DNA of 41,694 nucleotides. It comes from a virus. Of this stretch, positions 1-35,280 are shown one piece after another (the first letter of the stretch is position 1; each line of letters begins with the position of its first letter). Location: IMG/VR virus record IMGVR_UViG_3300006805_000055, positions 1 to 41,694 of that record. One strand, 5' to 3'. The notes beneath the pieces were generated by a model. The model was given only the letters and a program-made list of their open reading frames with translations, was not told where the DNA came from and did not search any database. Made by a program: the position numbers and the translations under genes.

Positions 1-86
1 GTACTGTAATCGTGCTTTTTTAGTGACGGGAGTTTGTCTGCTAACTCAGTAGCAGCGGATTCAAAGATAAATTCATTATAGCGCAT
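1..86 (-). CDS. Partial gene, N-terminus of a putative internal head protein
   Basis: Only the first 28 codons lie in the window; the gene runs off the left edge. The frame is open from the ATG at 86. The start reads MRYNEFIFE followed by S, closely resembling the T4 internal-protein targeting peptide (MKTYQEFIAE), with I-F-E matching the [I/L]-x-E site cut by prohead protease gp21. Its ATG overlaps the TAA of the upstream small gene (TAATG) and no Shine-Dalgarno is visible, so translation is either coupled or leaderless from the promoter element at 91-98. The function of the body is unknown. The start peptide is seen directly; packaging in the head is inferred. Confidence 0.6.
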   Translation of the reverse strand, partial: MRYNEFIFESAATELADKLPSLKKHDYS

Positions 87-241
87 TATATATTTATCAA
101 ATTAGTGCTCACTTTAGAGATATCAGGGCACGACTCCATATACTTCTCTGGCCAGCAGCCGGCCCACACGAAAACCACAAGGGTCCTAAGGTAGTGTGAT
201 CTATACAGGACTGTATGGATTACGAAATCTATCGTAACCAT
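86..241 (-). CDS. Small hydrophobic protein, 51 aa
   Basis: This short gene begins at an ATG preceded by a near-perfect Shine-Dalgarno (GGAGG, five bases upstream) and ends in a TAA that overlaps the next ATG. The product has a hydrophobic stretch around residues 18-31 (LRTLVVFVWAGCW) and two cysteines, so it may be a small membrane protein. No family is recognised. A competing 27-residue frame occupies 201-284 but has a poorer ribosome site. The strong ribosome site and the coupled stop/start argue that the gene is real; the function is unknown. Confidence 0.55.
   Translation of the reverse strand: MVTIDFVIHTVLYRSHYLRTLVVFVWAGCWPEKYMESCPDISKVSTNLINI
91..98 (-). promoter_or_regulatory. T4-type late promoter element GATAAATA
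   Basis: GATAAATA matches the T4 late -10 consensus TATAAATA in seven of eight positions. It lies inside the end of the 51-aa gene and exactly four bases before the ATG at 86, so a transcript starting here would be leaderless or nearly so. Confidence 0.6.
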
Positions 242-285
242 CGTCCTCCGGTATTACCGGGTATTCATTGTTTCGTTCGCTCATT

Positions 286-990
286 TCAGTGCCACTTTGA
301 TTGGTAGTAAAAATCTAAACCTTTAGTAGGTCTTACTAAAGATTTCATGTCTATCTCACTATATGATCCAGACAATCTATCTAAGAACATTTCAGCTACA
401 ATACGATTATTATCTTCTATCATATGACAATTTCTACTATCTCGCAGCTTTTTATTGTAAAATTCTTTTCGTACAACGTGATTCATTCCTAAAAACTCAT
501 CTTCGTATTTAGTCACTTCATATAATCCAGTATCATTCAGATATGGAACAGTGAAACATGGATAGACTATTGCATCTGGTCTTTTTTGCTGTACATCAGA
601 TACCATTAACTGATGTAGTGTCTCATCTTTGTCAATATCGTGAATGTATTCATAGTAATCAACTAGCAACTTATATTGTTTGTATTCTTCGTTAGTAGAA
701 TGCCCTAATTTAACTAGTGCTGCTTCATAGTTTTGATTAGGATAGATAGTGAACTTAAGATTAGTCAATGTCATACGATGCGGTGCGGTCACAAGAAAGA
801 TAACTTTATCAAAATTTTGATGATTCTTTAAGAACAACGCATAACTAAACCACAAGTTAGTACCAGTTTCTGCAAAATTAGTGATATCGTAAGTGTTAGT
901 ATCTTGGATGAAGTCTACCCAAGACCGTTCTTGGATATCAGGCGCGTCTTTTCTACCATAGCTATCGCCAAATATTGCTAATGTCTTCAT
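286..990 (-). CDS. SGNH/GDSL-like hydrolase family protein
   Basis: The 234-aa product starts with a beta strand running into FGDSYG (residues 7-12), the GDS nucleophile block of SGNH/GDSL esterases, followed by a NFAETGTN stretch that can serve as the Gly/Asn oxyanion blocks. Near the C-terminus, CHMIEDNNRIVAEMF resembles the block V histidine region. The substrate is unknown; SGNH proteins act on esters such as acetylated sugars or lipids. The gene sits in the late operon of putatively packaged proteins but has no capsid-targeting peptide. It starts directly after the upstream TAA (TAATATG). The fold is fairly likely; activity is an inference. Confidence 0.6.
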   Translation of the reverse strand: MKTLAIFGDSYGRKDAPDIQERSWVDFIQDTNTYDITNFAETGTNLWFSYALFLKNHQNFDKVIFLVTAPHRMTLTNLKFTIYPNQNYEAALVKLGHSTNEEYKQYKLLVDYYEYIHDIDKDETLHQLMVSDVQQKRPDAIVYPCFTVPYLNDTGLYEVTKYEDEFLGMNHVVRKEFYNKKLRDSRNCHMIEDNNRIVAEMFLDRLSGSYSEIDMKSLVRPTKGLDFYYQSKWH

Positions 991-991
991 A

Positions 992-1759
992 TTAGCTTTC
1001 TTCAGAGTCTTCTAAATCAGCTACGTCAACATAATTGATAGGTACACCTTTGATTGCAGCAGCTAATGCACGATGATTCCCATCAATGATTCTATCTCCT
1101 GAAAGCACAATGACTTTACTTGATAGTGCAGGATCATCTACATATGATTGTACTAGTTCTTTTCTGTCATCATCTAACATATCTACTACATCGTCAATAT
1201 GTTCTGCACGATACTGACCAAGCAATGTAATCATTACTTTATGCCTTGCCAATGTTTGAATAGTTAGTGGTGTATTAAATTCATGCGGACTAACATAGTC
1301 CCAGAATGTTTCGTCACGATCTGGATAGTTTCCGTTGTATAATTGCGCTAGAGTAGTAGAACTTGCGTCTTCTTTCATCAAGTGTTTAGCTTCACCTGAC
1401 TTCTTCCACGCTTTCCACATCTTCTTACCAGGTGGCAATTGTGAAGCACTAGGTTCTATCGTGTTGCCTAGCATTCTAGCATAAGCATACATTGTACTTG
1501 CGATACCTGATTGTTGATACTCTGGCTGTACTGTTGTTAGTGCGCTTACTAGTGAGTCACCGAATGTTGTGTAGAATTTAGCTTGTCCGATCATTTTAGT
1601 ACGGTTATAGCATCTAATAACAAACAAATCTGCTTTGTGGAATCTATCGGGTTCCAGTGCAGCGGTATATGTATATGCACCAATCTTTTGCTTGTGACTA
1701 AAGCGTGAATCAAGAATATCCGGGTTTATTTCCTCGTTGATAAATTCGGTTGCTCTCAT
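992..1759 (-). CDS. GNAT-like/ParB-like two-domain protein with capsid-targeting-like N-terminus
   Basis: The 255-aa protein has three parts. Residues 1-9 (MRATEFINE) match the T4 internal-protein targeting form ending in I-x-E. Residues about 30-125 look like a degenerate GNAT acetyltransferase, with a Q-x-x-G-I-A segment (QQSGIASTMYAYA) typical of the acetyl-CoA loop. Residues about 155-250 resemble the ParB/sulfiredoxin-like nuclease fold, with the hallmark DGNHRALAA. The gene overlaps its upstream neighbour by four bases (ATGA). Such a fusion could modify or cut host targets after ejection, but this is inference. The ParB-like signature is clear; the GNAT part is weaker. Confidence 0.65.
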   Translation of the reverse strand: MRATEFINEEINPDILDSRFSHKQKIGAYTYTAALEPDRFHKADLFVIRCYNRTKMIGQAKFYTTFGDSLVSALTTVQPEYQQSGIASTMYAYARMLGNTIEPSASQLPPGKKMWKAWKKSGEAKHLMKEDASSTTLAQLYNGNYPDRDETFWDYVSPHEFNTPLTIQTLARHKVMITLLGQYRAEHIDDVVDMLDDDRKELVQSYVDDPALSSKVIVLSGDRIIDGNHRALAAAIKGVPINYVDVADLEDSEES

Positions 1760-2376
1760 TTAGTTACCTCAGGTGCAGTTAGTGAAAACTCACTCTTAAA
1801 ATGTTCTAAATTCCAATTAGGCAATAGGCGTTTTGCCATTTTAGCATATAGTGCTTGTCGTGATGATTCCTTGGCAGAAAATATCAACTTAGATATCTGC
1901 CCTTTATGTTTCTCTAGGAAGGCTCGTAGGATATCAGTAACAGTAGACATAACTTGTGCAGCATTACCTGTACCAGTAACACCAAATCTATTACCTGGGT
2001 CACCACCTTCTACTATCTTAAACTCTACTTCCCAAGTTCCGGGTTGTGATGAATACGCATAGAATTTGTACTGTATATCACCTATTACAAATGTTGCTTC
2101 AGATTCAGTTGGACTGTTATAATCCCATTTCCAATCTTTGTCAGGGGCGAATAGTTCTGTTAGTTCTACCTCTTTCATCAACTTAGCAACACGAGGCTTG
2201 AACAACTGTACTTCACCTTTGTTAGTTTTTAACACAGGTTGATTGTGCTTGTCTTTAGTGAAGCCTTTAATCTCTGCTGGGCTATTCTTAAATTTACCTT
2301 TAAGTATCTTATCACCAACACTTAATTCAGGTGGTTGATATGATTCAGTTTCTGTGATGAATTCAATTGCTCTCAT
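1756..2376 (-). CDS. Uncharacterised protein with capsid-targeting-like N-terminus, 206 aa
   Basis: The protein opens with MRAIEFITE followed by T, almost identical to the start of the next gene downstream (MRATEFINE) and similar to T4 internal proteins. Residues about 17-70 form a small beta-rich segment (SVGDKILKGKFKNSPAEI) resembling a KOW/SH3-like barrel. The remainder (from about LTELFAPDKDWKWDYN) is an alpha/beta domain of unknown family with several further [I/L]-x-E sites. ATG overlaps the TAA of the Dps gene (TAATG), so translation is probably coupled. Function unknown; head packaging is inferred from the N-terminus. Confidence 0.6.
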   Translation of the reverse strand: MRAIEFITETESYQPPELSVGDKILKGKFKNSPAEIKGFTKDKHNQPVLKTNKGEVQLFKPRVAKLMKEVELTELFAPDKDWKWDYNSPTESEATFVIGDIQYKFYAYSSQPGTWEVEFKIVEGGDPGNRFGVTGTGNAAQVMSTVTDILRAFLEKHKGQISKLIFSAKESSRQALYAKMAKRLLPNWNLEHFKSEFSLTAPEVTK

Positions 2377-2816
2377 TACTCTCTATCTTTCTTTAAGATA
2401 GAGCGAATCATCCATGATTTCTTACCATAGAAGTCTTGTAGTTCTGCCATGAAGTTTGCAATGCCCTGCTGACGTTCAGCAGAGGCAACATCAAATATCT
2501 CTATTACTAATACGATCATTTTTTGACAGTCCACTAATGATTCAGCAAACATTAGTTCTGCACGTGGAATCTTTATTTGATCTTGAATGATTGACAACTC
2601 AGCATAGCGAGTTAAACTTGCAGGAGCATATGCATCTAACACCCTGATATACTCTGCAATTCTATCTATAGTCGCATATGAATCGTTGTACAGGTTGTCA
2701 TAGAATTCATGATATTGCGGGAAGTTACTACCTTCAATATTCCAATGAAAGTTACGAGACTTCAACGAGAACAATTCAGTTGAAGCCAGTAATGTCTTTA
2801 AGTTGTCAGATAACAT
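2376..2816 (-). CDS. dps: Dps-like ferritin (DNA-binding/iron-storage protein)
   Basis: The 146-aa product is a Dps-family ferritin. Ferroxidase residues H24, H36, D40, D51 and E55 are present, with the same spacing (12, 4, 11, 4) as in Escherichia coli Dps (H51, H63, D67, D78, E82), and the family signature NFHWNIEG-x-NF is intact. Dps oxidises Fe2+ with peroxide, stores iron and can coat DNA. The N-terminal lysine-rich tail used by some Dps proteins for DNA binding is very short here. It is encoded between two genes carrying capsid-targeting-like peptides but has none itself. A role in protecting phage or host DNA from oxidative damage is plausible. Confidence 0.9.
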   Translation of the reverse strand: MLSDNLKTLLASTELFSLKSRNFHWNIEGSNFPQYHEFYDNLYNDSYATIDRIAEYIRVLDAYAPASLTRYAELSIIQDQIKIPRAELMFAESLVDCQKMIVLVIEIFDVASAERQQGIANFMAELQDFYGKKSWMIRSILKKDRE

Positions 2817-2817
2817 T

Positions 2818-4221
2818 TTAATGCCTTAATAGTAATGTACTTAGTACATTAGGATCGTTGGCAGAAACATCTCCCTCACCCGGAGCAACGATAACATTAT
2901 ACTTCATGCCAGCAACTTTAGGCTTTGAAGTATATTCATTGTAGCTTAGAATACTTGATGGGCTGATACTGTACGCCTGACCAATACGTTGCTTCATTTG
3001 CTGTAGTGCTTCTGGGCTAGCAGGTTGCCATGCACCATCAGCGGTCTTAACTAAGTTACCCTTCTCATCTTTAGCTAACAAGTCATAGAATAACTTCTCT
3101 GGAACAATACGACTGTTCTTAGTTGTCTCTAAGTTAGGGTCTTGAGCTTTAACTTGTTTCTCTTGACCAGAACTTGCGCCTTCACTCCAGTTAATAATGA
3201 AGTTGTCAGGCTTTTGTGCCATTGCAGCACCTGCCATTTTGGTATAAGCGTAGAATTTAACATTAGGGTGAGCAGCAGCCATCTTCAATGCCATGTCTAA
3301 GTATTCTGGTGAGAAGAAGTCACCAGCATCGTGCCAACGAACTGTCACTCTCCATCCACCTTCAAATCCCTTTGATCCTTTTGCGCCATCTCGTTCTTCT
3401 TTAGCAATCTCTGCACTTAACTGTTTGAAGAAACCGGTTGGATCATTCAATAGATAAGTTAGAATACGACCATCGCTTAACCAAGCAGCTTTGAATTGTA
3501 CTTTGCCGCCCTTCATAGCGAAACAGTCAACTTTACATGAACCAGCACCTGGGCATGTGTTAACTACAATAAGTTTACCAGTAGATTCATCAACTGCTAT
3601 ACCAGTTAATGCTGCAAAACCAACGTTAAAGAATTGTTCAAACTCTCCGTTGCTATGTTTCATCTTTTCATTTTGCTTTAACAACTTCTTAGGACGTTGT
3701 TGCAATGCAGCAATAACAGCTTCTTCTTTGTATCTCTTTCCACCTTCATCATAATACTCAATAGCACTACTACGGTGAACATATGGCATCTTATACTTGT
3801 CTGTCTTAGTCTTACCAGTAGTATACTGCTGCACACCTTTTTTGTTTACTTTAATCTCGCCGGTCTTTTTATCAATATCATCGGTTCCTTTGATACGACC
3901 CATGTAGTCTTGAAATTCTTGAGAACCTAATTCACGTTGTTGTGCCGGTAGTGCAGTAGCTTCGTCTAAGTCTTCACCTTTTAGTTTTCGCAGTCTTTCT
4001 CTGAAGGCGTTAAAAACTCTATCGTCATCTTCACGGCTATCTTTTGGTGGTGTGCGCTTTTCAGCTTGACCCATGTCTACTTCTTCTGCAACTTCTTCTT
4101 CAGGTTGTTCTTGAGATTGTCCAGCTTGACCAACGAATTGATCCATAGACATAACTTTTACGCCTTGTGGGGCGCCGGGTAGTTTAGGCGTTGTGCCTTC
4201 GTATAATTCTTGAAAATTCAT
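2818..4221 (-). CDS. Gp88-like phage protein with capsid-targeting-like N-terminus
   Basis: This 467-aa protein starts MNFQELYE followed by G, giving an L-x-E cleavage-type site. After an acidic, low-complexity region (about residues 30-100) comes a globular domain resembling the mycobacteriophage gene-product-88 family. Its signs are a cysteine cluster C-x5-C-x3-C (TCPGAGSCKVDCFAMKGG) and the conserved VRWHDAGDFFSPEYLDMAL and KFYAYTKM segments. The biochemical role of that family is not established as far as I know; the cysteine cluster could bind a metal. It lies in the late operon read from the promoter at 5485. Family call moderately confident; function unknown. Confidence 0.6.
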   Translation of the reverse strand: MNFQELYEGTTPKLPGAPQGVKVMSMDQFVGQAGQSQEQPEEEVAEEVDMGQAEKRTPPKDSREDDDRVFNAFRERLRKLKGEDLDEATALPAQQRELGSQEFQDYMGRIKGTDDIDKKTGEIKVNKKGVQQYTTGKTKTDKYKMPYVHRSSAIEYYDEGGKRYKEEAVIAALQQRPKKLLKQNEKMKHSNGEFEQFFNVGFAALTGIAVDESTGKLIVVNTCPGAGSCKVDCFAMKGGKVQFKAAWLSDGRILTYLLNDPTGFFKQLSAEIAKEERDGAKGSKGFEGGWRVTVRWHDAGDFFSPEYLDMALKMAAAHPNVKFYAYTKMAGAAMAQKPDNFIINWSEGASSGQEKQVKAQDPNLETTKNSRIVPEKLFYDLLAKDEKGNLVKTADGAWQPASPEALQQMKQRIGQAYSISPSSILSYNEYTSKPKVAGMKYNVIVAPGEGDVSANDPNVLSTLLLRH

Positions 4222-4222
4222 A

Positions 4223-4531
4223 TTAACAGTTCCACTTCTTTAATGATAATGCTTTGCGAGTTGGTTCACCATGTTCATCCTTCATTGGACCTTCCATGCC
4301 ACTCATTCTAGCGCAGAAACTTTTTCTACGCTTTGCGTCTTTACTGCCTGCTTTTAATTTTGAAGGCTTAGTAGTAACTGCTGTTTGTAGTTTACTACCA
4401 GGATGTTCTCTACGATATGAGTCAACACCCTTTTGATTCAATCCACCGGTCTTATTCTTACCTGACTTCTTTTGCCAAGCAGCAACTTCTTTTACATCAA
4501 TGGATTCAGTGATTAATTCGTTGAGTTTCAT
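4223..4531 (-). CDS. Small basic conserved phage protein with capsid-targeting-like N-terminus, 102 aa
   Basis: The protein begins MKLNELITE followed by S, an I-x-E site like those of its neighbours. The rest is very basic and ends in a conserved block (RREHPGSKLQTAVTTKPSKL ... RRKSFCARMSG ... LSLKKWNC) that I recognise from many T4-like phage proteins of unknown function. It could bind DNA inside the head because of its charge, which is inference. It starts five bases after the TAA of the 309-aa gene, with AAGAAG as a possible ribosome site inside that gene. Confidence 0.65.
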   Translation of the reverse strand: MKLNELITESIDVKEVAAWQKKSGKNKTGGLNQKGVDSYRREHPGSKLQTAVTTKPSKLKAGSKDAKRRKSFCARMSGMEGPMKDEHGEPTRKALSLKKWNC

Positions 4532-4533
4532 AA

Positions 4534-5463
4534 TTACTTCTTTGGTACACAGTTAGGCACTGTCTTGCCACCTTTTTTCTTCATGCCGATTTGCTCGTAA
4601 CCATCCCAGCAATCTTCTTCTACTTTACCGGCATTATGTGCTTTCCATGTAGTGGCATAAGCAATTGATTTTTCTTTAGGAGTTAGTTTGCCGTCTTTAG
4701 CATAACCCTTTTTAATGTGCTTTACCATGCGTTCAGCTTTAGCTCCAGGAGGTGCTACTTCCGCCACACCTTGCTCAGGTGGATTAGGATTTGTAGTAAG
4801 CATAAATTGCTTTCCTGAATTGAACGGTTTAGCTTGCATAGTTAATGCTGCTTTGTTTGCTGCTGCTTTACCATAGAATGTGTAAGGTTGACCAGCTTTA
4901 TCTTTTACAACTTTACCGTTGATAGCAACATACCATGTGCCGGATTGTTCTTGTTTTTCACGGGCTCTGTCAATGTGATGATGCTCGTCATCTTCTCTTT
5001 CTCTACGCCCCCAATTGCGTGAACCACCATAATCACCTTCGTAGTCACTTGCGTTACTATCCCATGTTCCACGACCAGTTGCTTCTTTAGCAATAATATC
5101 TTTTGATTTAGGCTTGTTACCTAATTCTTTATCTTTTGCACGGTTGAATATATCTTCACGCTTTTGTTTAGCTTGTAGTTGTTCTTCGCTCAATTCGTCT
5201 TCATTAACTGTATCTTCTTTAATACCAGCCTTTGCACTGTTCGCAAACTTGCTGCTAGTCTTGATACCTTGAAACATGCTGCCTTGCCCACGTCTTTGCA
5301 TCTTGCCCATTGGTTTTGCACTAGGTGCCATACCGCCTGCAGTGCTAGTTCCTACACCTGATTCTAGCATTTCATCGCTACGACCAAACTTTGCGCCCGG
5401 TTGTCCCGGTGATGGCATTGACACTGGGGTAGCCATTGTTTCTGTTAAATTACTGATTTTCAT
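4534..5463 (-). CDS. Modular low-complexity protein with capsid-targeting-like N-terminus and GVAE repeat
   Basis: The first gene of the late operon from the promoter at 5485 encodes 309 aa. It starts MKISNLTE followed by T (L-x-E). The first 180 residues are polar and probably disordered. A small alpha/beta unit follows (GTWYVAINGKVVKDKAGQPY, residues about 175-225), like short DUF-type modules found in phage polyproteins. Then comes the QGVAE motif (around residue 232), and finally a helical module (AERMVKHIKKGYAKDGKLTP) and a Cys-containing tail (WDGYEQIGMKKKGGK...NC). The patchwork structure suggests module shuffling. Enzymatic function is not evident. Confidence 0.6.
   Translation of the reverse strand: MKISNLTETMATPVSMPSPGQPGAKFGRSDEMLESGVGTSTAGGMAPSAKPMGKMQRRGQGSMFQGIKTSSKFANSAKAGIKEDTVNEDELSEEQLQAKQKREDIFNRAKDKELGNKPKSKDIIAKEATGRGTWDSNASDYEGDYGGSRNWGRREREDDEHHHIDRAREKQEQSGTWYVAINGKVVKDKAGQPYTFYGKAAANKAALTMQAKPFNSGKQFMLTTNPNPPEQGVAEVAPPGAKAERMVKHIKKGYAKDGKLTPKEKSIAYATTWKAHNAGKVEEDCWDGYEQIGMKKKGGKTVPNCVPKK
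4758..4776 (-). repeat. GVAE coding repeat, copy A
   Basis: The plus-strand core TCCGCCACACCTT (4760-4772) recurs exactly at 9629-9641 and 10115-10127, each time in the same reading frame of the minus-strand gene, where it encodes GVAE. Copies A and B share 16 bases (TCCGCCACACCTTGCT). Copies A and C share 15. It uses GTG/GCG codons that are uncommon in this AT-rich genome. Confidence 0.7.
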
Positions 5464-5484: not shown

Positions 5485-5492
5485 TATTTATC
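5485..5492 (-). promoter_or_regulatory. T4-type late promoter element GATAAATA
   Basis: The element lies 21 bases upstream of the ATG at 5463, with a GGAA ribosome site between. It heads the operon of putative internal head proteins that continues to the left edge. Confidence 0.75.
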
Positions 5493-7305: not shown

Positions 7306-8382
7306 TTATGGTCGTAGCAACGGTGGTCGTCCGTCACGTTGTATATTGCTTCCTAATCTTCTAGCATTATCTTTGATTGAATTTGGAGTGATATCAACTG
7401 TTAGTGCTGTTTTAAATCTTGGATCATTTCTTTCGCTTTCACTAGGAATATAACCGCATTCTTCTAAGCTAGCTTTTTTAAGTAGCTCATAGTAGTTTGG
7501 ATTCTCACCTAAATGATCTAATGCAATCTCTGCTGCAATATCAAAATTACTAGTATGCTCGGACTCAATACCGATGCCCTTCATTAATTGATCTAATAGA
7601 TAATCTTTCGATACACGATGTTTTCTTGCCAGGTCATCAACATTTAGTGTACGCTTATCTAAGTTTTCACTCTCAGGAATACTCAATGTTTCGCTATGCA
7701 AGTCATTCAACTTGTCGTATAGTTTCTGAATAACACCCTTGCTACGTAATGCTTTGAATGCTAAATTTTCAGGACTGAATTCACCCAGTGAATCTAATCC
7801 TGCTTGTCTGTACTTCTTTAATGTCTTCAATACATTTTGAATCTTATCTGGTGTTTTCGCTTGTAGTGCGTACTTAGCTAATCTGTATAATTTACGGTAC
7901 TTTAGTTTAGTAGCCATTTGATCAAAGTCAGCTTTGCGCTTTCTAGGCAATTTGATCCACTTGTTGTTCATTACTGAGTATTCACCCAGACTAATTACAG
8001 GCTCATCACTATCCTGTACATATACTTCAACTTCATATCCGTTAATCTTAATGTCGTGTTGTTCGTTATATACCGTCTTTTTTGCGTCAAACAGTTCACG
8101 GTATACATCATCGTCTTCAAAACTCTTTATATCTACTAAAATGTGTAGGTCAATGTCGCTGTGCGCAGTGTATGTGTATGCTGCATTACTACCTGAAATA
8201 GTAATGTCCGCTATGTCTATGTCGTTGATTCCTAAATGTTCAACGAAATCTTCTGCAATAAGTAACAATTTTTTGCGTACATCATCTCTCAAATGATCAC
8301 CTTTGAACACTGCTGGGTTCAAGTGGTCATGGAAGTGGATGGCATCATCCAGCTTAAATTTATCTAATTCTTTAAATTGCAT
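7306..8382 (-). CDS. Nucleotidyltransferase-fold protein (Pol beta-like), 358 aa
   Basis: The product contains a minimal nucleotidyltransferase signature: a GS block and D-x-D acids in ISGSNAAYTYTAHSDIDLHI (about residues 65-84), as in Pol-beta-type transferases. A third carboxylate could lie in EVEVYVQD. The rest is helical with no recognised domain, and the C-terminus is basic and Pro/Arg-rich. I place the start at the ATG at 8382 rather than the TTG at 8397, because the late element at 8387-8394 covers the latter. There is no Shine-Dalgarno and the ATG lies four bases after the promoter element. The substrate is unknown: nucleotide transfer to RNA, protein or a small molecule are all possible. 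Confidence 0.75.
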   Translation of the reverse strand: MQFKELDKFKLDDAIHFHDHLNPAVFKGDHLRDDVRKKLLLIAEDFVEHLGINDIDIADITISGSNAAYTYTAHSDIDLHILVDIKSFEDDDVYRELFDAKKTVYNEQHDIKINGYEVEVYVQDSDEPVISLGEYSVMNNKWIKLPRKRKADFDQMATKLKYRKLYRLAKYALQAKTPDKIQNVLKTLKKYRQAGLDSLGEFSPENLAFKALRSKGVIQKLYDKLNDLHSETLSIPESENLDKRTLNVDDLARKHRVSKDYLLDQLMKGIGIESEHTSNFDIAAEIALDHLGENPNYYELLKKASLEECGYIPSESERNDPRFKTALTVDITPNSIKDNARRLGSNIQRDGRPPLLRP

Positions 8383-8386: not shown

Positions 8387-8394
8387 TATTTATA
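8387..8394 (-). promoter_or_regulatory. T4-type late promoter element, exact consensus TATAAATA
   Basis: This is an exact match to the T4 late -10 element, placed right after a strong terminator and four bases before the ATG at 8382. No Shine-Dalgarno lies between, so the mRNA is probably leaderless. Confidence 0.85.
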
Positions 8395-9402: not shown

Positions 9403-11019
9403 TTATTTTTCTTCTAGATAATCAGTGGATTCGGAGATATTGCTTTCAGCTACATCTTCGTCATAAGTAGGCATTGGTCTTTGTCCCGGACGACCTTTGA
9501 CGCCACGCTTCTCTGTGCTTGGTGGTTTTGTTGGTGGAACAATGTCTCCCATGTATCTTTGTTTAGGTTGAGCCTTTTTAGGATTGCGAATATGAATAGG
9601 AGCTTGTGCTACTACAATTGGAGCGCCCTCCGCCACACCTTGCTGCTCAAATGTTGGCTCTTTACGATCTATTGTAGAATTCTTGTATGACTTGTCAAGT
9701 TTAACAACATACTCGTACAATTTTGACCCTACCTCTGAACTTAGTTGATACATTACATTGGATTTCACTATTCCGTAAGCAATTTCTTTACCGTATTTTT
9801 CAATTAACGAATCTTCTATTCTAGTTGTGATCTCTTGTTGTAGTACAGTACCTATATATGCCCCGATACCGACGTTAGCACTAAACATAGGAAAACCAAA
9901 TTTATCAGTTGGGCTAGACTTAATAATTTCAGAAGTTACCTTATTTATAACATCTATATTATCATTTACTAATTTGTTATCTTTACTAATAGATTTTCCA
10001 ATTTTACTAACAAATTCTCCTACTAAATGACCGAGAGTCGCACCTAACATTGCTGCATAGTGATTTCCAAAATGATATCCCAATGCTCCGCCGAGCGCCG
10101 CGCCCTTCCAGCCTTCCGCCACACCTTTTTCATCACGGTCACTAAAGTCTACATAGTACTTCTTAGTAACAGGATTCCAACGTGTCTGTGGTTCTTTACC
10201 TTTTGCTTTTAATGCTTGCGCTTGTTTAGCCTTTTGACCTACGCTAGCGACTTTCTCGTCCCATGCAGGATCTGAATAGTCAGTCTCTTTGTTTTCACTT
10301 AGCGCAGTTTTCATCAACTTCATGAACTTCAATTTCATTGCCGGACTAGCTTCTTTTAACAAAGGACGAATCTTTTGAATTTGTTCGGCTAGTGCCTTGT
10401 TCTTTAGTTTATTGATGGCGTTAGGTTTGACTGGCATAGCTGCAGGTTCCTGTGGACTTGTTAGATACTTGTCTAGCAATGATTTAATCATTTGTTGTTG
10501 TTTGCTCTTAGGATATAGTTGTTGAATGATCTTCATTCTACCAGCATCATCCGCTGAACCATACATACTACGAACTTGTGAGCCAGAGAATACTTCTTGA
10601 CCATCAACGGTGAAGTTGTGTTTCTTAGTAACAAATACATAACCATGCTTACTGAACGGAGCCATTGGTTGACCTTTAACATACGGTTGATAGTATGCAG
10701 GTGTTCCGTCTTTTCTAGTATATCCCACTGGATCACGCTCACTACGAACCATGATATAAACATCTTTCTCAGGATCATACTGAGCAAGAATTTCTTGTGG
10801 ATTGATTGGGTTCTTAGTTTCAACGAATGGATCAACTACACCGGCTTGCTGTGCTAAAAACTGTTTGTCTTTGAAAGGAATCGGACGCTGTTTAACATCG
10901 TTGCTTGCTGCTACGTAGAAAGTTGCACCAGGAAATGCCTTCTTAGCTTGTAAGTAGCTACTCAAATGACCTTCATGAAATGGCTGAAAGCCTCCGCCGT
11001 ATACAACAATAGTAGCCAT
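9403..11019 (-). CDS. NMN adenylyltransferase-like protein with an inserted hydrophobic module between GVAE repeats
   Basis: Residues 1-190 form a cytidylyltransferase-fold nucleotidyltransferase. GGGFQPFHEGH carries the HxGH motif (15-18) and SGSQVR (145-150) matches the second signature. The closest known role is NMN adenylyltransferase (NAD synthesis), though other nucleotidyl substrates are possible. Residues about 190-295 are a helical linker. Two GVAEG motifs, at about 299-303 and 460-464, bracket a module rich in Gly/Ala (GWKGAALGGALGYHFG) and then helical, AT-rich in DNA. The tail is proline-rich. At 538 aa it is far longer than a plain NMNAT, apparently through modular insertion. Confidence 0.75.
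   Translation of the reverse strand: MATIVVYGGGFQPFHEGHLSSYLQAKKAFPGATFYVAASNDVKQRPIPFKDKQFLAQQAGVVDPFVETKNPINPQEILAQYDPEKDVYIMVRSERDPVGYTRKDGTPAYYQPYVKGQPMAPFSKHGYVFVTKKHNFTVDGQEVFSGSQVRSMYGSADDAGRMKIIQQLYPKSKQQQMIKSLLDKYLTSPQEPAAMPVKPNAINKLKNKALAEQIQKIRPLLKEASPAMKLKFMKLMKTALSENKETDYSDPAWDEKVASVGQKAKQAQALKAKGKEPQTRWNPVTKKYYVDFSDRDEKGVAEGWKGAALGGALGYHFGNHYAAMLGATLGHLVGEFVSKIGKSISKDNKLVNDNIDVINKVTSEIIKSSPTDKFGFPMFSANVGIGAYIGTVLQQEITTRIEDSLIEKYGKEIAYGIVKSNVMYQLSSEVGSKLYEYVVKLDKSYKNSTIDRKEPTFEQQGVAEGAPIVVAQAPIHIRNPKKAQPKQRYMGDIVPPTKPPSTEKRGVKGRPGQRPMPTYDEDVAESNISESTDYLEEK
9627..9645 (-). repeat. GVAE coding repeat, copy B
   Basis: The core at 9629-9641 is identical to copies A and C. On the minus strand it encodes Q-Q-G-V-A-E-G near the C-terminal end of the inserted module of the NMNAT-like gene. 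Confidence 0.7.
10113..10129 (-). repeat. GVAE coding repeat, copy C
   Basis: The core at 10115-10127 is identical to copies A and B and encodes K-G-V-A-E-G at the N-terminal border of the inserted module. Together with copy B it flanks about 480 bases as a direct repeat in the same frame. Confidence 0.7.
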
Positions 11020-11577: not shown

Positions 11578-12285
11578 TTAGTCAGGGCGTTTCTCTAGTT
11601 TAAACCTACGCTTAATCATGTCTCCGAACATAATACCAATCAATGAGTGAGTACTTTCTTCATTGTATTCTATGTAATAATGACTGCTACAATAGCGGTA
11701 TGCCCAGTATTTTACTTGACCGTTAAGCCAACTATTTAGTGATGAACTAGCAACAATTATAGTTTGGGTGCCTTTGTATCTATCTACAAACCGTTTCAAA
11801 TCTTCAACAAATTTGTCTTTGACCGCTTTAGATTTTAGATACACCCTATACTTGTATTTAGGTTCCTTAACGAAATACTTGACCCCTGTCGGGATGCTTG
11901 TATCAATCTCAGTATAGTCAACTGCATCTTTTCCAGCAATAGATTCCAGTGTCTGTAATAGCTGCAAGTCATTGCTAAACACACCAGCAGTAATCGACTC
12001 AACACGAATGAGTACTTGTTTATCGGCTTTATCAATTGGAGTTGCATAGGTGTTTCTCCAATTGATAAACTTCTCTATACAGTCTAGATCAAGTAATGCT
12101 ATTTCTTTTTGCCTACCATACTTTTTTAAACGATATAGAACATCAAGCATTGTTTTAGCTTGATGTGTTCTATTCAACCCAGCTAGCTTCAACCTAGCTC
12201 GGTATTGATATTTGCCATAATACAACGACTCTCTGCGATCTATGCCGATCACTGCCGGCTTAACTAATGACGTTGATGAAACCAT
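11578..12285 (-). CDS. Uncharacterised phage protein, 235 aa
   Basis: The product is basic, with an N-terminal segment rich in Tyr/Arg (SLYYGKYQYRARLKLAG) and a C-terminal segment (SHYYIEYNEESTHSLIGIMF) ending in a basic tail (KRRFKLEKRPD). A parallel pair of strands (KVLIRVES-like and KYRVYLKS) suggests a duplicated alpha/beta element. It overlaps the end of clpA by 26 bases, so it is probably co-translated with it. I know similar proteins from T4-like phages only as hypothetical ones. No enzyme motif is evident. Confidence 0.65.
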   Translation of the reverse strand: MVSSTSLVKPAVIGIDRRESLYYGKYQYRARLKLAGLNRTHQAKTMLDVLYRLKKYGRQKEIALLDLDCIEKFINWRNTYATPIDKADKQVLIRVESITAGVFSNDLQLLQTLESIAGKDAVDYTEIDTSIPTGVKYFVKEPKYKYRVYLKSKAVKDKFVEDLKRFVDRYKGTQTIIVASSSLNSWLNGQVKYWAYRYCSSHYYIEYNEESTHSLIGIMFGDMIKRRFKLEKRPD

Positions 12286-14533
12286 TACTATCTACCCCTA
12301 CGTTTAGTTTCTGTGCTATGTCAAAACGTATTTCATCTCCATTCATATTAGCAGTAATTGTGGTGTTTTTAATACGTTCAAACAGAATCTTCTTACTTAA
12401 TGGGATGCGTACTAGTTCATCAATTTTACGAGCTAAAGGACGTGCGCCCATTTTAGGATCATATCCCTTGTCAGCTAGATAATCTACTACTGGCTCACTA
12501 AGATTCAATGTAATGTCATGCACTTCCTTAAGAGATTTCTTCAAGTCATCGGTAAACTTAATAACGATTTTTTTAATTGCTAGTATGTCTAGCTTACCAA
12601 ACTTAGTAATCAGGTCAATACGATTCCTGAATTCTGGCTTGAAGAATTCTTTCAATGCTTTGTCATCATCTCCGATACGTTCTTGACTACCGAAGCCAAT
12701 GTTGCTACGTTCGCTATCACTAGAACCTAAGTTGCTAGTCATAATAATGATACAGTTTTTAGCATTCACTTCTTTACCGTTTGTACCAGTAACACGACCT
12801 TCGTCTAACAATTGCAAGAATACGTTAAAGATATCAGGGTGAGCTTTTTCAACTTCATCAAACAACAAGATAGAGTGAGGGTGCTTACTCAAGTCATTGA
12901 TAAGTCTGCCGCCGCCTAAGTTTCCTTCACCGAAGCCTACATAACCAGGAGGTGCGCCTAGCAAGCCGCTGACGTTAAACTTTTCACTGTATTCACTCAT
13001 ATCGTACTTGAGCAATTTCATGTCCAAGTTCTTACTAAGTTGTTTAGCTAGTTCGGTCTTACCTGTACCAGTTGGTCCTAAGAACAAGAAACTTGCTAGA
13101 GGTTTAGTTTGATTACCGATACCCGCGAATGACACATAGATACGTTCAAGTACTTTATCAACCGTTTCCTCTTGTCCGTACAATTTATCTTTAACATTAG
13201 TTTCTAGATTTTGAATTCTATCAGAAGTATCATCTGTCAACTTGTCAGCAGGAACTCCAGTGTACTTTTCAATTTGCTCAAACACTAGTTCCTTAGTGAT
13301 GACAGCACCTTTGTTTTCCAACACACGTTGTTTAGCACAAGCTGCGTCTAGCAAGTCAATAGATTTGTCAGGGTTCTTACGATCTTGAATGTAACGAGTT
13401 GCACCTTCTACGCTTGCATTGATTGCTTCGTCGGTGATTTCAACACTGTGGAAATCGCTCAATCTTGCACTCAATCCTTTGAGAATTCGAACAGTAGACT
13501 CTGGACTTGGTTCATCAATACTAACACGATAGAATCGGCGCATCAATGCACGATCCTTCTCGAAACTTTCGTAGAATTCTTCCCATGTAGTACTAGCAAT
13601 AACTTTCAGTGTGCCTTTAGTAATCGCAGGCTTGATCATGTTAGCAAAGTCAACACTTCCATTGCTGGAGCCGCCTGCACTACGCATGGTATGTGCTTCG
13701 TCAATGAACAGAATAGCATTTTCTTTTGCAGCCAATGCTTCTAGTACGTCTTTGACCTTTTCTTCAAAGTCACCACGATACTTACTACCTGCAAGCAATG
13801 AACCGATTTCAAGACTATACAATTCGTGATCTAACAAAAAGTCAGGTACTTCTTTGTTGACAATCATCTGTGCGAGACCTTCTGCAATCGCAGTTTTTCC
13901 CACGCCAGGATCACCAACCATCAATACATTGCTTTTGAATCGTTTTGCCAGAACGTTAACGATATCATCAATTTCTTTAGTACGACCGATGACTGGCTCA
14001 AGTTTGTCTAGCTTAGCCAATTGAGTCATGTTGATAGTAAATTCTTCAAGAATCTCATCAGCTTGCTCATCTGTCATCTTGACTTCTTTGTGGTCACTCT
14101 TGTAGTTTTTCTGCCAGTAAGGAACAAATTCGTTCTTCACAAAGCCATACTTAAGCATAAAGTAATGCGCGTGACTATTTGTTTCTGCGCTAATACTCAG
14201 GTACAAGTCAATCGTAGTCACAACTTTGCGACCAGTGAACAATACTTGAGTTACGCTTCGATTCATCACACGTTCTAAGCTGTTGGTCTTACGAGGTTGA
14301 ACTTCTTGACCGGGCTCTACATCTACTGTAATAGCTGTTAAGCTATCCAAATATGCAGTTATGTCTTTGTTCATAGATTCAGTGTCAATACCGTGACCAA
14401 CTATACATTTCTTGAATGGTACATAATTAATTAATGCAAGCAACAAGTGCTCGACGGTGCAATACTGATGATTGCGAACTTTCGCCAAACCTACTGCTTG
14501 TTCGATGATTGATTCAATTTCGGGTGAATGCAC
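12260..14533 (-). CDS. clpA: ClpA-like AAA+ unfoldase
   Basis: The 757-aa protein has the full ClpA layout: a Clp N-domain (about 1-150), a first AAA module with Walker A GDPGVGKT (207-214) and Walker B ILFIDEA, and a second AAA module with Walker A GPTGTGKT (486-493). There is no ClpB/ClpC middle domain. An I-G-F tripeptide at 612-614, just before [10 protein letters not shown], matches the position of the ClpP-docking loop of E. coli ClpA (IGL). No clpP is in the window, so it may engage host ClpP. The start is GTG with AAGGAAA upstream, nine bases after dnaJ. Confidence 0.93.
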
Positions 14534-14542: not shown

Positions 14543-15340
14543 TTATGAAGTTTTGTGTTGTAAAATACTGTCAGTTATGCTTTTGTCTATTTTATCAGGA
14601 ATAAACGGTTTAATCAATATCAATTGGTCACCGTAGCCATTCTGAGTAGGTAAACCTTGTCCGGCGATGCGTAATGTACTATCAGGTTGTGTTCCTGGTT
14701 TAACACCAACTTCGAATGTTTTCCCAGATATAGTAGTGAATGAGAACTTGGTTCCGACAATCAAGTCTAACACACTAATGCGATGTTGGCACAACAAGTG
14801 GCTACCTTGACGTTCGTATACGGGATGCACATGCACTCTAAATTCAACCATAAGTATTCCATTTGGAATCAAGTTATCAAATCGTAGTTGCGCACCGTTT
14901 TCTACTCCTTTTGGAATCTCAATCTTCACTACTTGTATTCCATTTGGTCCTTGCATTTGTAGCATTTGTTCGCCACCAGTGAAAACTTGTTCTAGCGATA
15001 CCCAAATAGTTGTTTTATAAGTTTGTTGGAAATGTTGTTGAAATGGATTTTGTCTTCCACCACCAAACATCTGCCCGATGATATCATTAATATCAACTCC
15101 ACCGTGATGAAAGCTAAAGCCTCCGCCTGGAAAGCCGCCCGGGAAACCCTGCTGCGGTTGTTCGTATTCTTGTTTCTTTTGGGGGTCGCTTAGTGTTTCG
15201 TAAGCTGCTTGAATCTGTTGAAACATAGCAGTATCACCACCTTTGTCCGGGTGATGAATAGCTGCTAGTCTTCGATATGCTTTTTTGATTTCGTCAGGTG
15301 AAGCGTTTCTAGCTACACCAAGAGTATTATAATGGTCCAT
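14543..15340 (-). CDS. DnaJ/CbpA-like J-domain co-chaperone
   Basis: The 265-aa protein has an N-terminal J domain with the HPD motif at residues 30-32, a Gly/Phe-rich linker (about 65-105) and the two beta-barrel substrate-binding domains of Hsp40. The Cys-rich zinc module of classical DnaJ is absent, so it is of the CbpA/type II kind. It would stimulate the ATPase of host DnaK. It precedes clpA by nine bases and the two probably form one late unit from the element at 15377. A perfect hairpin lies in the leader and no Shine-Dalgarno is obvious. Confidence 0.92.
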   Translation of the reverse strand: MDHYNTLGVARNASPDEIKKAYRRLAAIHHPDKGGDTAMFQQIQAAYETLSDPQKKQEYEQPQQGFPGGFPGGGFSFHHGGVDINDIIGQMFGGGRQNPFQQHFQQTYKTTIWVSLEQVFTGGEQMLQMQGPNGIQVVKIEIPKGVENGAQLRFDNLIPNGILMVEFRVHVHPVYERQGSHLLCQHRISVLDLIVGTKFSFTTISGKTFEVGVKPGTQPDSTLRIAGQGLPTQNGYGDQLILIKPFIPDKIDKSITDSILQHKTS

Positions 15341-17150: not shown

Positions 17151-17158
17151 TATTTATC
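17151..17158 (-). promoter_or_regulatory. T4-type late promoter element GATAAATA
   Basis: It lies four bases before the ATG at 17146 with no ribosome site between, which suggests a leaderless transcript for the 204-aa, 177-aa and holin genes. Confidence 0.8.
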
Positions 17159-17320: not shown

Positions 17321-18112
17321 TTGAGCAAAAGAAAAACAGGCGCTTTACGCAATCAGGAACAAGACACACGTTACCCATCACACGGTAGAAAACAGGACTC
17401 ACAAACTTACTACGCAAAGGAAACTAAAACTATTAAATTTGATCAAACTCGAACTAGTACTCGGGTAGACAAAAGACCTATTAATCTTATTCCAAAATCA
17501 GTCAACCAAGAGAAATACATTCTAGCACTACTTGACGATTCTACAGATATTGTAGTTGTCGGTGGACCAGCTGGAACAGGTAAGACTTACTTAGCTATGT
17601 TAGCTGCTATCAAAGCACTAAAAGCAGGTGAGACAGACCGTATTATTCTTAGCCGCCCTGCAATCGGTGTTGAAGACGAACAACATGGGTTCTTACCAGG
17701 TGATATCAATCAAAAGATGGAACCTTGGACTAGACCTTTGTTAGATGTGCTAAGAGAGTATTATACAGCCGCAGAAATCGCCCACATGCTAGAAGAACAA
17801 ATAGTGGAAATCGCACCCCTAGCATTCTGTCGAGGTCGAAACTTCAAGGACAGCTGGATTATATTAGATGAAGCTCAAAATGCAACCCCAGGGCAACTCA
17901 AAATGATTATGACCCGAATCGGCGTTAACAGTAAGATTGTAATTACTGGAGACATAGAGCAAGCCGATAGAAAAACAGCCGACAATGGGCTACTAGACCT
18001 ACAAAATCGATTGAGGAAGGGGGTGATTCCTGGATTGCAATTATGTAACTTTGAACTGAAAGACGTTCAACGTCATAGAATAATTGAACACGTACTTAGA
18101 TTGTACGGTTAA
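17321..18112 (+). CDS. phoH: PhoH-like ATPase, 263 aa
   Basis: The protein has a P-loop ATPase of the PhoH family: Walker A GPAGTGKT at residues 82-89, Walker B WIILDEAQNA around 179-188 and VITGDIEQAD downstream. PhoH-like genes are frequent in marine T4-like phages; the biochemical role is still debated (phosphate response or RNA metabolism). I choose the TTG start at 17321 because AAAGGAG lies seven bases upstream. The GTG at 17285 is inside a hairpin and has no ribosome site. It is transcribed against its neighbours and ends in a bidirectional terminator. Confidence 0.92.
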   Translation: MSKRKTGALRNQEQDTRYPSHGRKQDSQTYYAKETKTIKFDQTRTSTRVDKRPINLIPKSVNQEKYILALLDDSTDIVVVGGPAGTGKTYLAMLAAIKALKAGETDRIILSRPAIGVEDEQHGFLPGDINQKMEPWTRPLLDVLREYYTAAEIAHMLEEQIVEIAPLAFCRGRNFKDSWIILDEAQNATPGQLKMIMTRIGVNSKIVITGDIEQADRKTADNGLLDLQNRLRKGVIPGLQLCNFELKDVQRHRIIEHVLRLYG

Positions 18113-20366: not shown

Positions 20367-20756
20367 TTAAACGCCTTTTTCACCTATTGTTAAATCATTG
20401 ACGGGTTCGTCTGATATCAGTAGTATATCATCAGGATCCACTCTGCGCAACGTGTGTTTACCCGTTTCGTCTTCAATATCAACACCGCGCGTCCATCTTC
20501 CGTGTGTAATGTAAATCCATTTGCCCACTTCAATGTCATTGATAGCGTTGAAGTCTGGTCCAAGTGCATAGACTTGTGCCCAACGAGGTCTGATACCATG
20601 ACTTTTCATGTCATCATTCAATAACACAATACCACTCTTAGTGAACCGTTCAGTGAATTCCATACCACTAACGATAACGTGCTGCCCAATTGGCTTGAAA
20701 GATGCTTTAGTAATTTTGTGCGGCTCAAAGGCTGCTTTCAATACAATGTCGCTCAC
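20367..20756 (-). CDS. GroES/gp31-like co-chaperonin
   Basis: The 129-aa protein has the Cpn10 fold features: KPIGQHVIVSGM as the first strand, a glycine-containing mobile loop with the I-V-L tripeptide at residues 43-45 that binds GroEL in E. coli GroES, and VGKWIYITHGRWTRG near the end. It is a little longer than GroES (97 aa) and close in size to T4 gp31. In T4, gp31 replaces GroES for folding the major capsid protein gp23; the same role is inferred here. It overlaps the upstream gene by four bases. Confidence 0.88.
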   Translation of the reverse strand: MSDIVLKAAFEPHKITKASFKPIGQHVIVSGMEFTERFTKSGIVLLNDDMKSHGIRPRWAQVYALGPDFNAINDIEVGKWIYITHGRWTRGVDIEDETGKHTLRRVDPDDILLISDEPVNDLTIGEKGV

Positions 20757-30789: not shown

Positions 30790-33105
30790 TTATTTTATTC
30801 CGCTTAACTTTTTCCAGTCTACTAGCAAGTTGCTAGAATCCTTTAACAACTTAGTTTCAAATGTAACTTTAGTTGGATTACCGACTGCTTGGCTATGTTT
30901 TTCACGGTGCAAATCATTACCTTGACCTAGCATATGCTTCAAGTGAGCCATTTGTTCGTTACCTGCATCATTTGCATATTCTTCTACTTGTTCTTTACCA
31001 TCAGTTGAACAAACGCAACGTGCTTCAAACATACCGCATTCGTTACATGAACCACCTTCTTCGTGCATGTGTTCTTCTTCGCCCATCTGAGGTACTTGAC
31101 CTTGTTCTTTAACTGGGTACTCTTGTCCACCGACTTTGATTTTCTGACCTGCGTCAGGGATGTTATCAGACTTAGCTTTAGCAACTGCACCACCAAAAGC
31201 ATTGCCTTCGTCAGTAGTTTCTTCTTCGCCTTCGCCTTGACCATCTGCAACACCGTCTTCTTCTTCGTAGTCAGGGGTCAATGTTCCTTCTGGACCATCT
31301 TGACCATGTTCTTCTTGCTCGCCACCTTGATCAGCAAAACCACCAGTAGGCGGAGCACTTTGGATTCCAGACATTTTCTTAATCAATGCCATCATATCAT
31401 CACCGTCGCCGACTACTGAAGGACTTGCTTGAGGATCATTACCACTGCCACCTTCATCGCCGCTCATTGGTGCACCGTATGCACTAGTTGCTTGCTCGCC
31501 CCCGCCACCAAAGATACCTAAACCAGCTTGTTTTACTAGAGCCATTAGTTCTGCTGCGTCAGAATCAGTAGCATTGATGCTAACTGAATCAGGTGTACCT
31601 TGTTGACCTTGGCTACTTGTTACAGTGAAACCCTCAGACAATAATGAATTTAATTCTTTTTCCCAGCTCTCTAGTTGTACGTCTTTCATATCTTTGCTTT
31701 CAAATGTTTTCTTTGGTGCGACTAAGTTTCTAAGGAAACTACCTGCTTTTGCCCCAGCGTCAATAGCTCGGTCAGTTGTTGCTTGAATTGGATCTACTTT
31801 CCATGATGTTGGCTTAGGATTAGCATCAACCATGTTGAATCTTGATGGCTTGCTGTCCATGCCGTGAGTAGTGAAGTCTTCTTTAGAACCTTCATCGGTA
31901 ATTGCATTACCTGCTAAACCGCCACCGATAGCTCCTAGTGGGCCGCCTAACGCACCACCTAATACTGCGCCGCCAATGCCACCGCCTAAACCTTCATCAG
32001 CCATTTTCTTTTTTGAATGACCATGAATTTTTAGAAATGCTTCTAACTTATCACTGCAATGTCCAGTCTTAGTATATGTGTCAATATCTTTTTGCAATTC
32101 TGACATCATATCATTCACGTCAGTACCAGCTTCTTGCATCATTTCAGTGAAACTTAAACTTTCTTTAACTTTCTTCTTAGCTAATGCTTTGAAATCTGCA
32201 CCAGTCAATTTACCTTTTGGTGGAGCAACATCTAATTTTTCTTGCTTACCTGGTAAATCTTTTGCTTCAGATACTGCTTCTTGATCTTGTACTTTACCAA
32301 ACTTACCTTTAGCACGAATAGCAAATGCTAGTTCTTTCATGTTGCTGTATGGCTTGCTGCCTTCTTGATGAGGGCCAGTAGACTTCAAGTGATTGTAAGC
32401 CTTAAGCAATTCGCTCTTGCTCTTACCAGCATACTTACCTTTTTCAGATGCAGGGGTATCCATTTTGGTATCCCACTTTTCATTCATCTGTTGACCTTGC
32501 TCGTCATCACCCGCTAAGTTCAACGTACCTTTTTCGGCTGCTTGTTTGATTGTGTTAGCAGTTGCTGCATCAGCAGTACCAATTGGTTTGTTGTCAGCAC
32601 CCATGATTTGTGATGCACCGGGCATTGGCTTGATAGTGATTCCACCTTCTTCAGACACAGGCTTCTTATCAGCTAAACCAGCACGTGCTTCAGCTTTAGT
32701 CATCTTGTAAGTAGCTTGAAATTCCTGGTCAGTCAATTCACGCAAATCCATCTGAAGTTGTTTTACACGACCCTCAGCTAGCATATCAACTCCGGCACTT
32801 TCAATCCAGTCTTTTAAGCTGTGCTTGATTGTTTTCTTTTTATCCCACTTAGGTAACTTAACATCTTTACCACTGGCGCCAAATGCAGACCAATCAGGTT
32901 TGCTATCAGCTGGGCCTGCTTTTGGAGGACGACCTTTACCACGCTTAACAGCAGGTGGTGCTTGCTTAACCGGGTTACCATCAGCATCTTCGTCGTCTTT
33001 ACGACCATAGCCACCTGGATCAGCAGTGTGAATCTTTCCTGTCGGAGTCTCTTTAGTAGCCTCGGAAAGAGTGTTCATTGATTGGAGTAGTTTTCTGAAA
33101 TCCAT
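30790..33105 (-). CDS. Large low-complexity putative internal or structural protein, 771 aa
   Basis: The protein starts MDFRKLLQSMNTLSE followed by A, with L-S-E as a gp21-type site at residue 15; many further L-x-E sites follow (for example LLSE, LTE). It is largely disordered and acidic, with Lys-rich modules and a glycine zipper (GGAVLGGALGGPLGAIGGG, about residue 385) that could insert in membranes. A C-terminal Cys cluster (CNECGMFEARCVC) may bind metal. It overlaps the small upstream gene (TAATG) and its transcript ends at the terminator 30744-30773. It may be a head-internal or ejected protein; a scaffold-like role is the alternative. Confidence 0.6.
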   Translation of the reverse strand: MDFRKLLQSMNTLSEATKETPTGKIHTADPGGYGRKDDEDADGNPVKQAPPAVKRGKGRPPKAGPADSKPDWSAFGASGKDVKLPKWDKKKTIKHSLKDWIESAGVDMLAEGRVKQLQMDLRELTDQEFQATYKMTKAEARAGLADKKPVSEEGGITIKPMPGASQIMGADNKPIGTADAATANTIKQAAEKGTLNLAGDDEQGQQMNEKWDTKMDTPASEKGKYAGKSKSELLKAYNHLKSTGPHQEGSKPYSNMKELAFAIRAKGKFGKVQDQEAVSEAKDLPGKQEKLDVAPPKGKLTGADFKALAKKKVKESLSFTEMMQEAGTDVNDMMSELQKDIDTYTKTGHCSDKLEAFLKIHGHSKKKMADEGLGGGIGGAVLGGALGGPLGAIGGGLAGNAITDEGSKEDFTTHGMDSKPSRFNMVDANPKPTSWKVDPIQATTDRAIDAGAKAGSFLRNLVAPKKTFESKDMKDVQLESWEKELNSLLSEGFTVTSSQGQQGTPDSVSINATDSDAAELMALVKQAGLGIFGGGGEQATSAYGAPMSGDEGGSGNDPQASPSVVGDGDDMMALIKKMSGIQSAPPTGGFADQGGEQEEHGQDGPEGTLTPDYEEEDGVADGQGEGEEETTDEGNAFGGAVAKAKSDNIPDAGQKIKVGGQEYPVKEQGQVPQMGEEEHMHEEGGSCNECGMFEARCVCSTDGKEQVEEYANDAGNEQMAHLKHMLGQGNDLHREKHSQAVGNPTKVTFETKLLKDSSNLLVDWKKLSGIK

Positions 33106-33326
33106 TATTTTAATCCTTGTTTCTTGTCTAATTTGTCTTCGATACGTACTAGTTGCTTGTGTAGTTCAGCAAGATCAACTTTAACGTTGTCCATCTTTAC
33201 ACTACTAATTTCAATTTTAGTATCTAATTCTTTCATCTTGCCGTCCATTGTAAGATATCCCGTGCCGCCCATTGAGCAAGCACCGATAACTATCCATGTT
33301 AATTGGCTAGCGTTGAAATCAATCAT
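33105..33326 (-). CDS. Small membrane-anchored coiled-coil protein, 73 aa
   Basis: The N-terminus has one hydrophobic segment (TWIVIGACSMGGTGYL, about residues 10-25), followed by a heptad-like helix to the C-terminus (VKVDLAELHKQLVRIEDKLD). This layout resembles spanin-like or small holin-like phage proteins, but neither can be claimed. It is coupled on both sides: ATGA overlap with the upstream gene and TAATG with the downstream one. Confidence 0.65.
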   Translation of the reverse strand: MIDFNASQLTWIVIGACSMGGTGYLTMDGKMKELDTKIEISSVKMDNVKVDLAELHKQLVRIEDKLDKKQGLK

Positions 33327-35264: not shown

Positions 35265-35280
35265 AAAATACCTCTTTGTG

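Follow-up and report, generated by a model that had tools for sequence, protein, structure and literature searches.

Why should a series of genes encoding otherwise unrelated proteins all begin, in one bacteriophage, with the same kind of short peptide? The question is raised by IMGVR_UViG_3300006805_000055, a virus fragment of 41,694 bases (the whole stretch is here called the window), in which genes of a tightly packed operon, and two genes further along, encode N-terminal peptides ending in [I/L]-x-E, e.g. MRAIEFITE. These peptides are very probably capsid-targeting sequences of the type carried by T4 IPIII and Alt, by which a T4-like jumbo phage loads many proteins into its prohead. The evidence strongly implies that the tagged proteins are packaged and cleaved; by analogy with T4 it suggests, more weakly, that they may be injected and act as effectors on the host.

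The source of the window is a giant (jumbo) freshwater virus infecting bacteria. Its T4-like placement comes from genes for tail sheath, tail tube, gp4-like head closure and clamp loader proteins; the second tail tube protein is nearest to those of Rak2/PA5oct/Atu_ph07-type jumbo phages (~27% identity), and close IMG/VR relatives range up to 223-525 kb. Two contigs of its sample match the window where they overlap it, one at 99.97% identity over 15.3 kb and the other, L081, at 99.94% over 14.2 kb, and together they extend both window ends.

The N-terminal peptides

The eight peptides reported in the initial annotation, six in the operon and two on genes starting at 33925 and 33105, are all present on plausible, in-frame genes of the - strand, and all are amphipathic and end in [I/L]-x-E. 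The first gene of the operon (4534-5463) encodes a modular protein starting MKISNLTE/T, the slash marking the predicted cut site. It is followed by MKLNELITE/S on a DUF6321 module (4223-4531; a firm family match, PF19846, 85 bits), MNFQELYE/G on a GP88-family protein (2818-4221; PF17338, 87 bits, likewise firm and as first proposed), MRAIEFITE/T on a two-part protein with a weakly GNAT-like fold (1756-2376) and MRATEFINE/E on a protein with a GNAT-like fold at residues 20-121 (992-1759). Encoded amid these on the same strand, as had been noted, are a Dps/ferritin-like protein (2376-2816; PF00210, 58 bits) and an SGNH-hydrolase-like protein with a GDSYG start (286-990; family assigned by eye, with no Pfam match above cut-off). 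Neither carries a peptide, the N-termini of the Dps orthologues all being MLxDNLK or similar, and they thus serve as negatives within the operon. Together with the five complete tagged genes (992-5463) these two form one tightly packed run. The sixth peptide, MRYNEFIFE/S, belongs to a gene that starts at 86 and is cut by the left window edge (1-86, - strand). Further along the same strand, MKSLRHYLTE/S begins a conserved protein of 200 residues (33323-33925) and MDFRKLLQSMNTLSE/A a modular protein of 771 residues (p771; 30790-33105), a candidate core or internal protein.

A strict form of the peptide, MR..[EQ][FL][ILVM].E, is encoded by 2 of the 38 window genes and by 4/345, 4/158 and 5/375 genes of relatives, where the expectation from shuffling residues 2-18, or from internal Met residues, is 0.00; none was found in G007, a 117 kb fragment. 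A loose pattern ([IL]-x-E with the Glu at residues 8-15) is modestly enriched by itself, at 7 vs 1.45 expected in the window and 22 vs 8.6 in the relative G001. It was dismissed as evidence on its own, being too common, and the assignment of the non-MR peptides therefore rests on conservation.

Such conservation is evident across orthologues, in which the [I/L]-x-E and a following small or acidic residue are kept and the remainder of the peptide varies. Thus, orthologues within one DUF6321 family start MKLNELITE, MRATEFITE, MKVNEIINE or MRIKEILSE, and GP88 orthologues start MKINDILE, MNFKELFE or MKIRQLME, the Glu being kept; MKSLRHYL.E/S is always kept in orthologues of the 33323-33925 protein, as is [I/L]-x-E at residues 13-15 in those of p771. 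Among 107 families with at least 4 members in the relatives, 90 are without the peptide and a few nearly always have it. The strict form was found on 72 distinct proteins with 16 unrelated bodies among the related loci collected. A scan of IMG/VR with a back-translated codon pattern of the strict form gave at least 146 matches on at least 120 stretches; the matches listed include 138 open reading frames of at least 60 residues and 131 with no upstream in-frame ATG, and their bodies fall into 30 unrelated clusters. Third codon positions in the tag vary freely for Ala, Glu, Phe and Ile, and such synonymous variation means that it is the peptide, not the DNA, that is conserved. Chance and paralogy as sources of the peptides were rejected on the enrichment and the unrelated bodies. 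In short, as with the T4 propeptides, a short N-terminal element (~8-19 residues) is common to unrelated proteins, with an [L/I]-x-E ending on all eight window peptides and their orthologues.

Tagged proteins in cyanophage S-CREM2 virions

S-CREM2 is a T4-like cyanophage whose virion proteome, of 52 proteins, has been published (PMC10665884). Read from the deposited genome, its virion SAM lyase starts MKDFDSFLEE, its APH-like kinase (V)KRFDAFLTE and its cytidylyltransferase MKNFSSFLTE, and small virion proteins start MKDLHSFLTE and MQTFSMFFSE; the enzyme N-termini resemble that of T4 IPIII, MKTYQEFIAE. The pattern F[ILMF].E is present in residues 1-13 of 5 of the 52 virion-detected proteins, the SAM lyase, kinase and cytidylyltransferase among them, vs 1 of 167 others (P = 0.003, a descriptive value because the pattern was set after the T4 and S-CREM2 N-termini had been viewed). 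Applied to 61 T4 genes as a positive control, it picks out IPII and IPIII and no others.

Two window proteins have homologues that were detected in the S-CREM2 virion by mass spectrometry. The DUF6321 protein resembles the C terminus of ORF137 (45% identity over 86 residues, 1e-17), in which the module follows SSMNE/DWQK, and an untagged nucleotidyltransferase-like protein (7306-8382, - strand) resembles ORF156 (32%, 1.5e-29), on which NTP_transf_2 was matched. Separately, the virion-detected, Cas9-annotated ORF12 (L233:7704-10313) has a tag-like RFASFMAE/A ~18-25 residues in (FMAE at ~22-25), its start codon being possibly misplaced.

Prohead protease and predicted cleavage sites

T4 gp21 cuts after L/I-x-E, and the first 10 residues of T4 IPIII are all that its packaging requires (PMC9026906). 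The initial annotation had made its reading depend on a gp21-like protease, and an S77 (gp21-type) prohead protease is encoded in 7 of the 14 related contigs searched, these being the seven longest (94-103 bits vs a cut-off of 27). In G001, G005 and G006 its gene lies within a T4-like head module, before those for the scaffold and major capsid protein. The capsid precursor of these three has a conserved LLAE/SSAG or LLAE/SSVG, a predicted cut site the position of which matches T4 gp23 FLTE/AEIG.

Many bodies that are tagged in one protein also appear inside longer ones; to compare these junctions, only the body after the tag was aligned, so that the Glu itself gives no bias. Glu occupies P1 at 69 of 91 internal junctions (76%), compared with a mean of 5.6% and a maximum of 13% at other offsets, and hydrophobic-x-Glu is found at 38 of the 91 (42%) vs 1.4% at control offsets. 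That the exact P3-P1 motif is not at all junctions is due in part to those of DUF6321, which read xDE/GE/NWSK. At the one such junction of the window, in the 1756-2376 protein, VELTE/LFAPDKDWKW aligns with MRANEFLSE/LFQPGKKNWE of a relative, the second domain, from residue 75, being a separately tagged protein in relatives, and Glu-74 of the internal VELTE/LF site is invariant in 20 sequences. In an AlphaFold model of this protein, residues 1-23 and 60-78, which contain both predicted cut sites, have predicted local distance difference test values (pLDDT) <50 and are probably disordered, and the domain that follows is modelled mostly with confidence. The fusions, then, have lost the docking part and kept the cleavage part, as a protease site would predict; an effect of start codons or recombination fits less well.

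Within tagged proteins, [I/L]-x-E/[AGS] sites are not generally enriched (39 observed vs 39.2 in shuffled sequences). Only GVAE, usually GVAE/G or GVAE/S, is conspicuous: it is ~27-fold over shuffle inside tagged proteins, e.g. within the 4534-5463 protein, and may be a linker site.

Predicted cargo

An ADP-ribosyltransferase tagged MRSFEFIIE/S is encoded 0.2 kb past the right edge of the window in the same phage population (ART-PolyVal, PF18760, 51.9 bits vs a cut-off of 31.2); T4 Alt belongs to the same enzyme class. Relatives encode a second tagged ART-PolyVal protein, a tagged GNAT, a tagged LysM protein with a GH19 body and, by eye only, tagged kinase-like and ART-like proteins; a search of NCBIfam found nothing. 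In one genome of 367 kb the candidate tagged genes number roughly 10-18.

Within the window, the MRYNEFIFE gene is complete on L081 (14136-14720), where it encodes 194 residues with a HELVH (HExxH, zincin-like) motif and no Pfam match above cut-off. The 992-1759 protein had been described as a GNAT-ParB fusion. Its GNAT part is weakly supported; its ParB part amounts to a ParB-like DGNHRA motif, seen by eye only, in the C-terminal region, and the AlphaFold model, of low confidence (52), shows no ParB fold. The modules SIAYATTWKAHN and CWDGYEQIGMKKKGGK of the 4534-5463 protein are also found in cyanophages.

Proteins of T4-like phages that are otherwise unrelated, in cyanophages and in the present clade (e.g. 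4534-5463), share two small modules, SIAYATAWKAHNKGK and CWxGYxxxGxKKKGGKxVxNCV, with identities of up to ~78%. An iron/manganese superoxide dismutase with a tag-like MRDIISLLE/D or MRDLIQLLE/D is encoded in G001 (L180:891-1445; PF02777, 77.7 bits) and G005a (34804-35358).

Late-promoter-type boxes

T4-type late promoter boxes (GATAAATA, - strand) lie at 5485-5492, 21 bases 5' of the first ATG of the operon, at 33944-33951, 18 bases 5' of the start at 33925, and at 91-98, 4 bases 5' of the ATG of the MRYNEFIFE gene, which thus has its own box, separate from that of the packed run. The exact TATAAATA was rejected as a promoter signal in the window, where 2 were found vs 3.95 expected, i.e. at chance level; only the degenerate box with a fixed start-codon spacing is informative. 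Boxes of the form NATAAATA[C/T] (window 8387-8394, 17151-17158 and 91-98, and the relatives G001 and G005) have two preferred distances to the start codon, either 4-7 bases, for which a leaderless mRNA is expected, or ~16-24 bases with an intervening GGA-type Shine-Dalgarno sequence; distances of 8-15 bases almost never occur.

Proposed mechanism and alternatives

The tagged proteins would be made late, from TATAAATA-type promoters; by extension from T4, their amphipathic M-[R/K]-x-x-E-[F/L]-[I/L] would dock on the prohead core and, as the head matures, the S77 protease would cut directly behind the [I/L]-x-E Glu. Such cleavage is proposed from the motif itself, from the finding of a protease gene in relatives and of a matching site in the capsid precursor, and from the retention of Glu at fusion junctions. 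The freed bodies would stay in the head and, as in T4, probably be carried into the next host along with the DNA. Several cargoes would be polyproteins in which sites of this kind also part the domains, and a single tag could then bring in several domains. The predicted cargo comprises an ADP-ribosyltransferase, GNAT-like enzymes, a kinase-like domain, an HExxH protein, GP88 and DUF6321 proteins. We give an even chance to a bolder version, in which the cargo is modular, fast-changing and poly-effector: a single tag would bring a polyprotein into the prohead, S77 would cut it both behind the tag and in the [I/L]-x-E or GVAE linkers that have been retained, to give several enzymes, all delivered with the DNA, and the same signal would predict virion cargo across the T4 superfamily, cyanophages included.

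The initial proposal of head-packaged proteins with T4-like targeting peptides is supported by the S77 protease of relatives, by the S-CREM2 virion enzymes with the same tag and by the tagged ADP-ribosyltransferase. Several points weigh against it. No protease is found in the 41.7 kb window, a fragment without the head-protease region, and the S77 protease is consequently shown for relatives only. The virion proteomics evidence comes from S-CREM2, rather than from this phage or close relatives; its P value is descriptive; some S-CREM2 virion proteins, including the nucleotidyltransferase ORF156, are without a tag; and the S-CREM2 authors weighed both packaging and carry-over through CsCl purification (PMC10665884). 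The loose [I/L]-x-E is common, and individual non-MR assignments could be chance, as is judged to be the case for the DNA ligase of G001 (MSASWINKLNE), which was rejected as a tagged protein.

Of the other explanations, the one with most to commend it, which we nonetheless think rather unlikely, shares the targeting and cleavage and differs in function: the tagged proteins would mainly be structural components of the prohead core or inner body, like T4 gp22, gp67 and IPIII, and not effectors. The modular, partly low-complexity nature of p771, p309 and the DUF6321/GP88 proteins is in its favor, as are the use of the same sites by T4 core proteins and the presence in the S-CREM2 virion of several proteins with the same modules and no recognizable enzyme domain. 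However, the tagged bodies include ADP-ribosyltransferase, GNAT, superoxide dismutase and LysM/GH19, and turnover between relatives is high, as in a host-interaction gene set. Some of the cargo may still be structural core protein, p771, p309 and the DUF6321 proteins being candidates.

It is very improbable that the shared N-terminal peptide is a cassette for translation initiation or recombination, one that eases the swapping and expression of genes and plays no part in targeting. The occurrence of one prefix on unrelated bodies, its swapping between orthologues and the use of mostly AGA for the tag Arg, above genome usage, would be so explained, but the freedom of third positions (for Ala, Glu, Phe and Ile) disfavors a DNA cassette, Glu is kept at internal junctions that have no start codon, and the same peptide is on S-CREM2 virion enzymes and T4 internal proteins. 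We regard as equally improbable that the peptide directs proteins to the tail, the baseplate or an intracellular compartment instead of the head. The S-CREM2 proteomics is silent on where in the particle the enzymes lie, and the window operon is beside a tail-fibre gene; yet gp21 is documented to cleave at [I/L]-x-E (PMC9026906), a motif that matches the capsid-precursor site of the clade, and the EFI-E core is the sequence of T4 IPIII.

Relationship to known systems

The system of the window is very probably a broad form of T4 capsid targeting, itself well known, in which some cargo appears to be made as polyproteins. Likenesses to T4 IPI-III and Alt are the N-terminal peptide of 8-15 residues, the EFI-E core, the [I/L]-x-E motif, the S77 protease, the unrelated bodies, the late-type promoter and an ADP-ribosyltransferase among the cargo. 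By contrast with T4, the clade of the window has many more cargo families (at least ~30 unrelated bodies on the strict prefix) and domain fusions that keep the sites. S-CREM2 is alike in having, among particle enzymes found by mass spectrometry, the same kind of N-terminus, and in having DUF6321 and nucleotidyltransferase homologues in common with the window; it differs in host and cargo sets, and the available part of its paper gives the virion enzymes without a targeting explanation (PMC10665884).

Phage and plasmid polyvalent proteins are large, and some are predicted to be processed by a peptidase domain of their own (PMC5512222). They resemble the present proteins as multidomain conflict proteins and through the ART-PolyVal (PF18760) match; in the window clade, fusions of at least two domains were seen, with ART-PolyVal matched by separate tagged proteins. 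What the present proteins have in common, by contrast, is short T4-type tags and prohead-protease sites. In phiKZ and SPN3US, head-packaged proteins are cut after Glu by a gp21-related protease (PMC9026906). Their inner-body and ejection proteins thus share head packaging and the after-Glu cleavage proposed for the window clade, which differs in being T4-like (with its Rak2/PA5oct/Atu_ph07-like tail tube) and in its short T4-type tags. In the accessible parts of the open literature, to which the search was confined, subscription papers being outside its scope, capsid targeting and cyanophages were joined in one review only, and no description of such tags in this jumbo clade was found.

If the targeting interpretation is true, a nine-residue signal flags proteins that are packaged in the head, and probably injected, across a very large group of uncultured phages as well as cyanophages, and sequence alone could tell what protein cargo these phages bring along, and probably inject, together with the DNA. 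It would give function-directed leads for dozens of unknown genes, offer an explanation for cyanophage virion-associated enzymes, so far left open, and suggest a simple route for exchange of injected cargo, in which the body is swapped and the tag kept.

Other features of the window

A cytidylyltransferase-like protein (9403-11019, - strand; GGFQPFHEGH, family by eye) has no targeting peptide and two internal GVAE/G sites. Genes for a ClpA/B-like ATPase (phrog_4871), PhoH (phrog_170) and DnaJ-like and GroES-like proteins (the latter two by eye) lie at 12260-14533, 14543-15340, 17321-18112 and 20367-20756. The tail sheath protein (37135-40737), at 1200 residues, far exceeds T4 gp18, similarity to known sheaths being mainly in its second half. 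A tail-fibre gene adjoins the tagged operon and, just past the left edge of the window, three near-identical tandem genes with the N-terminus MANYNSIKNAALIAPTTNPDLGSA (L081:14734-19184) are likely a fibre gene family.
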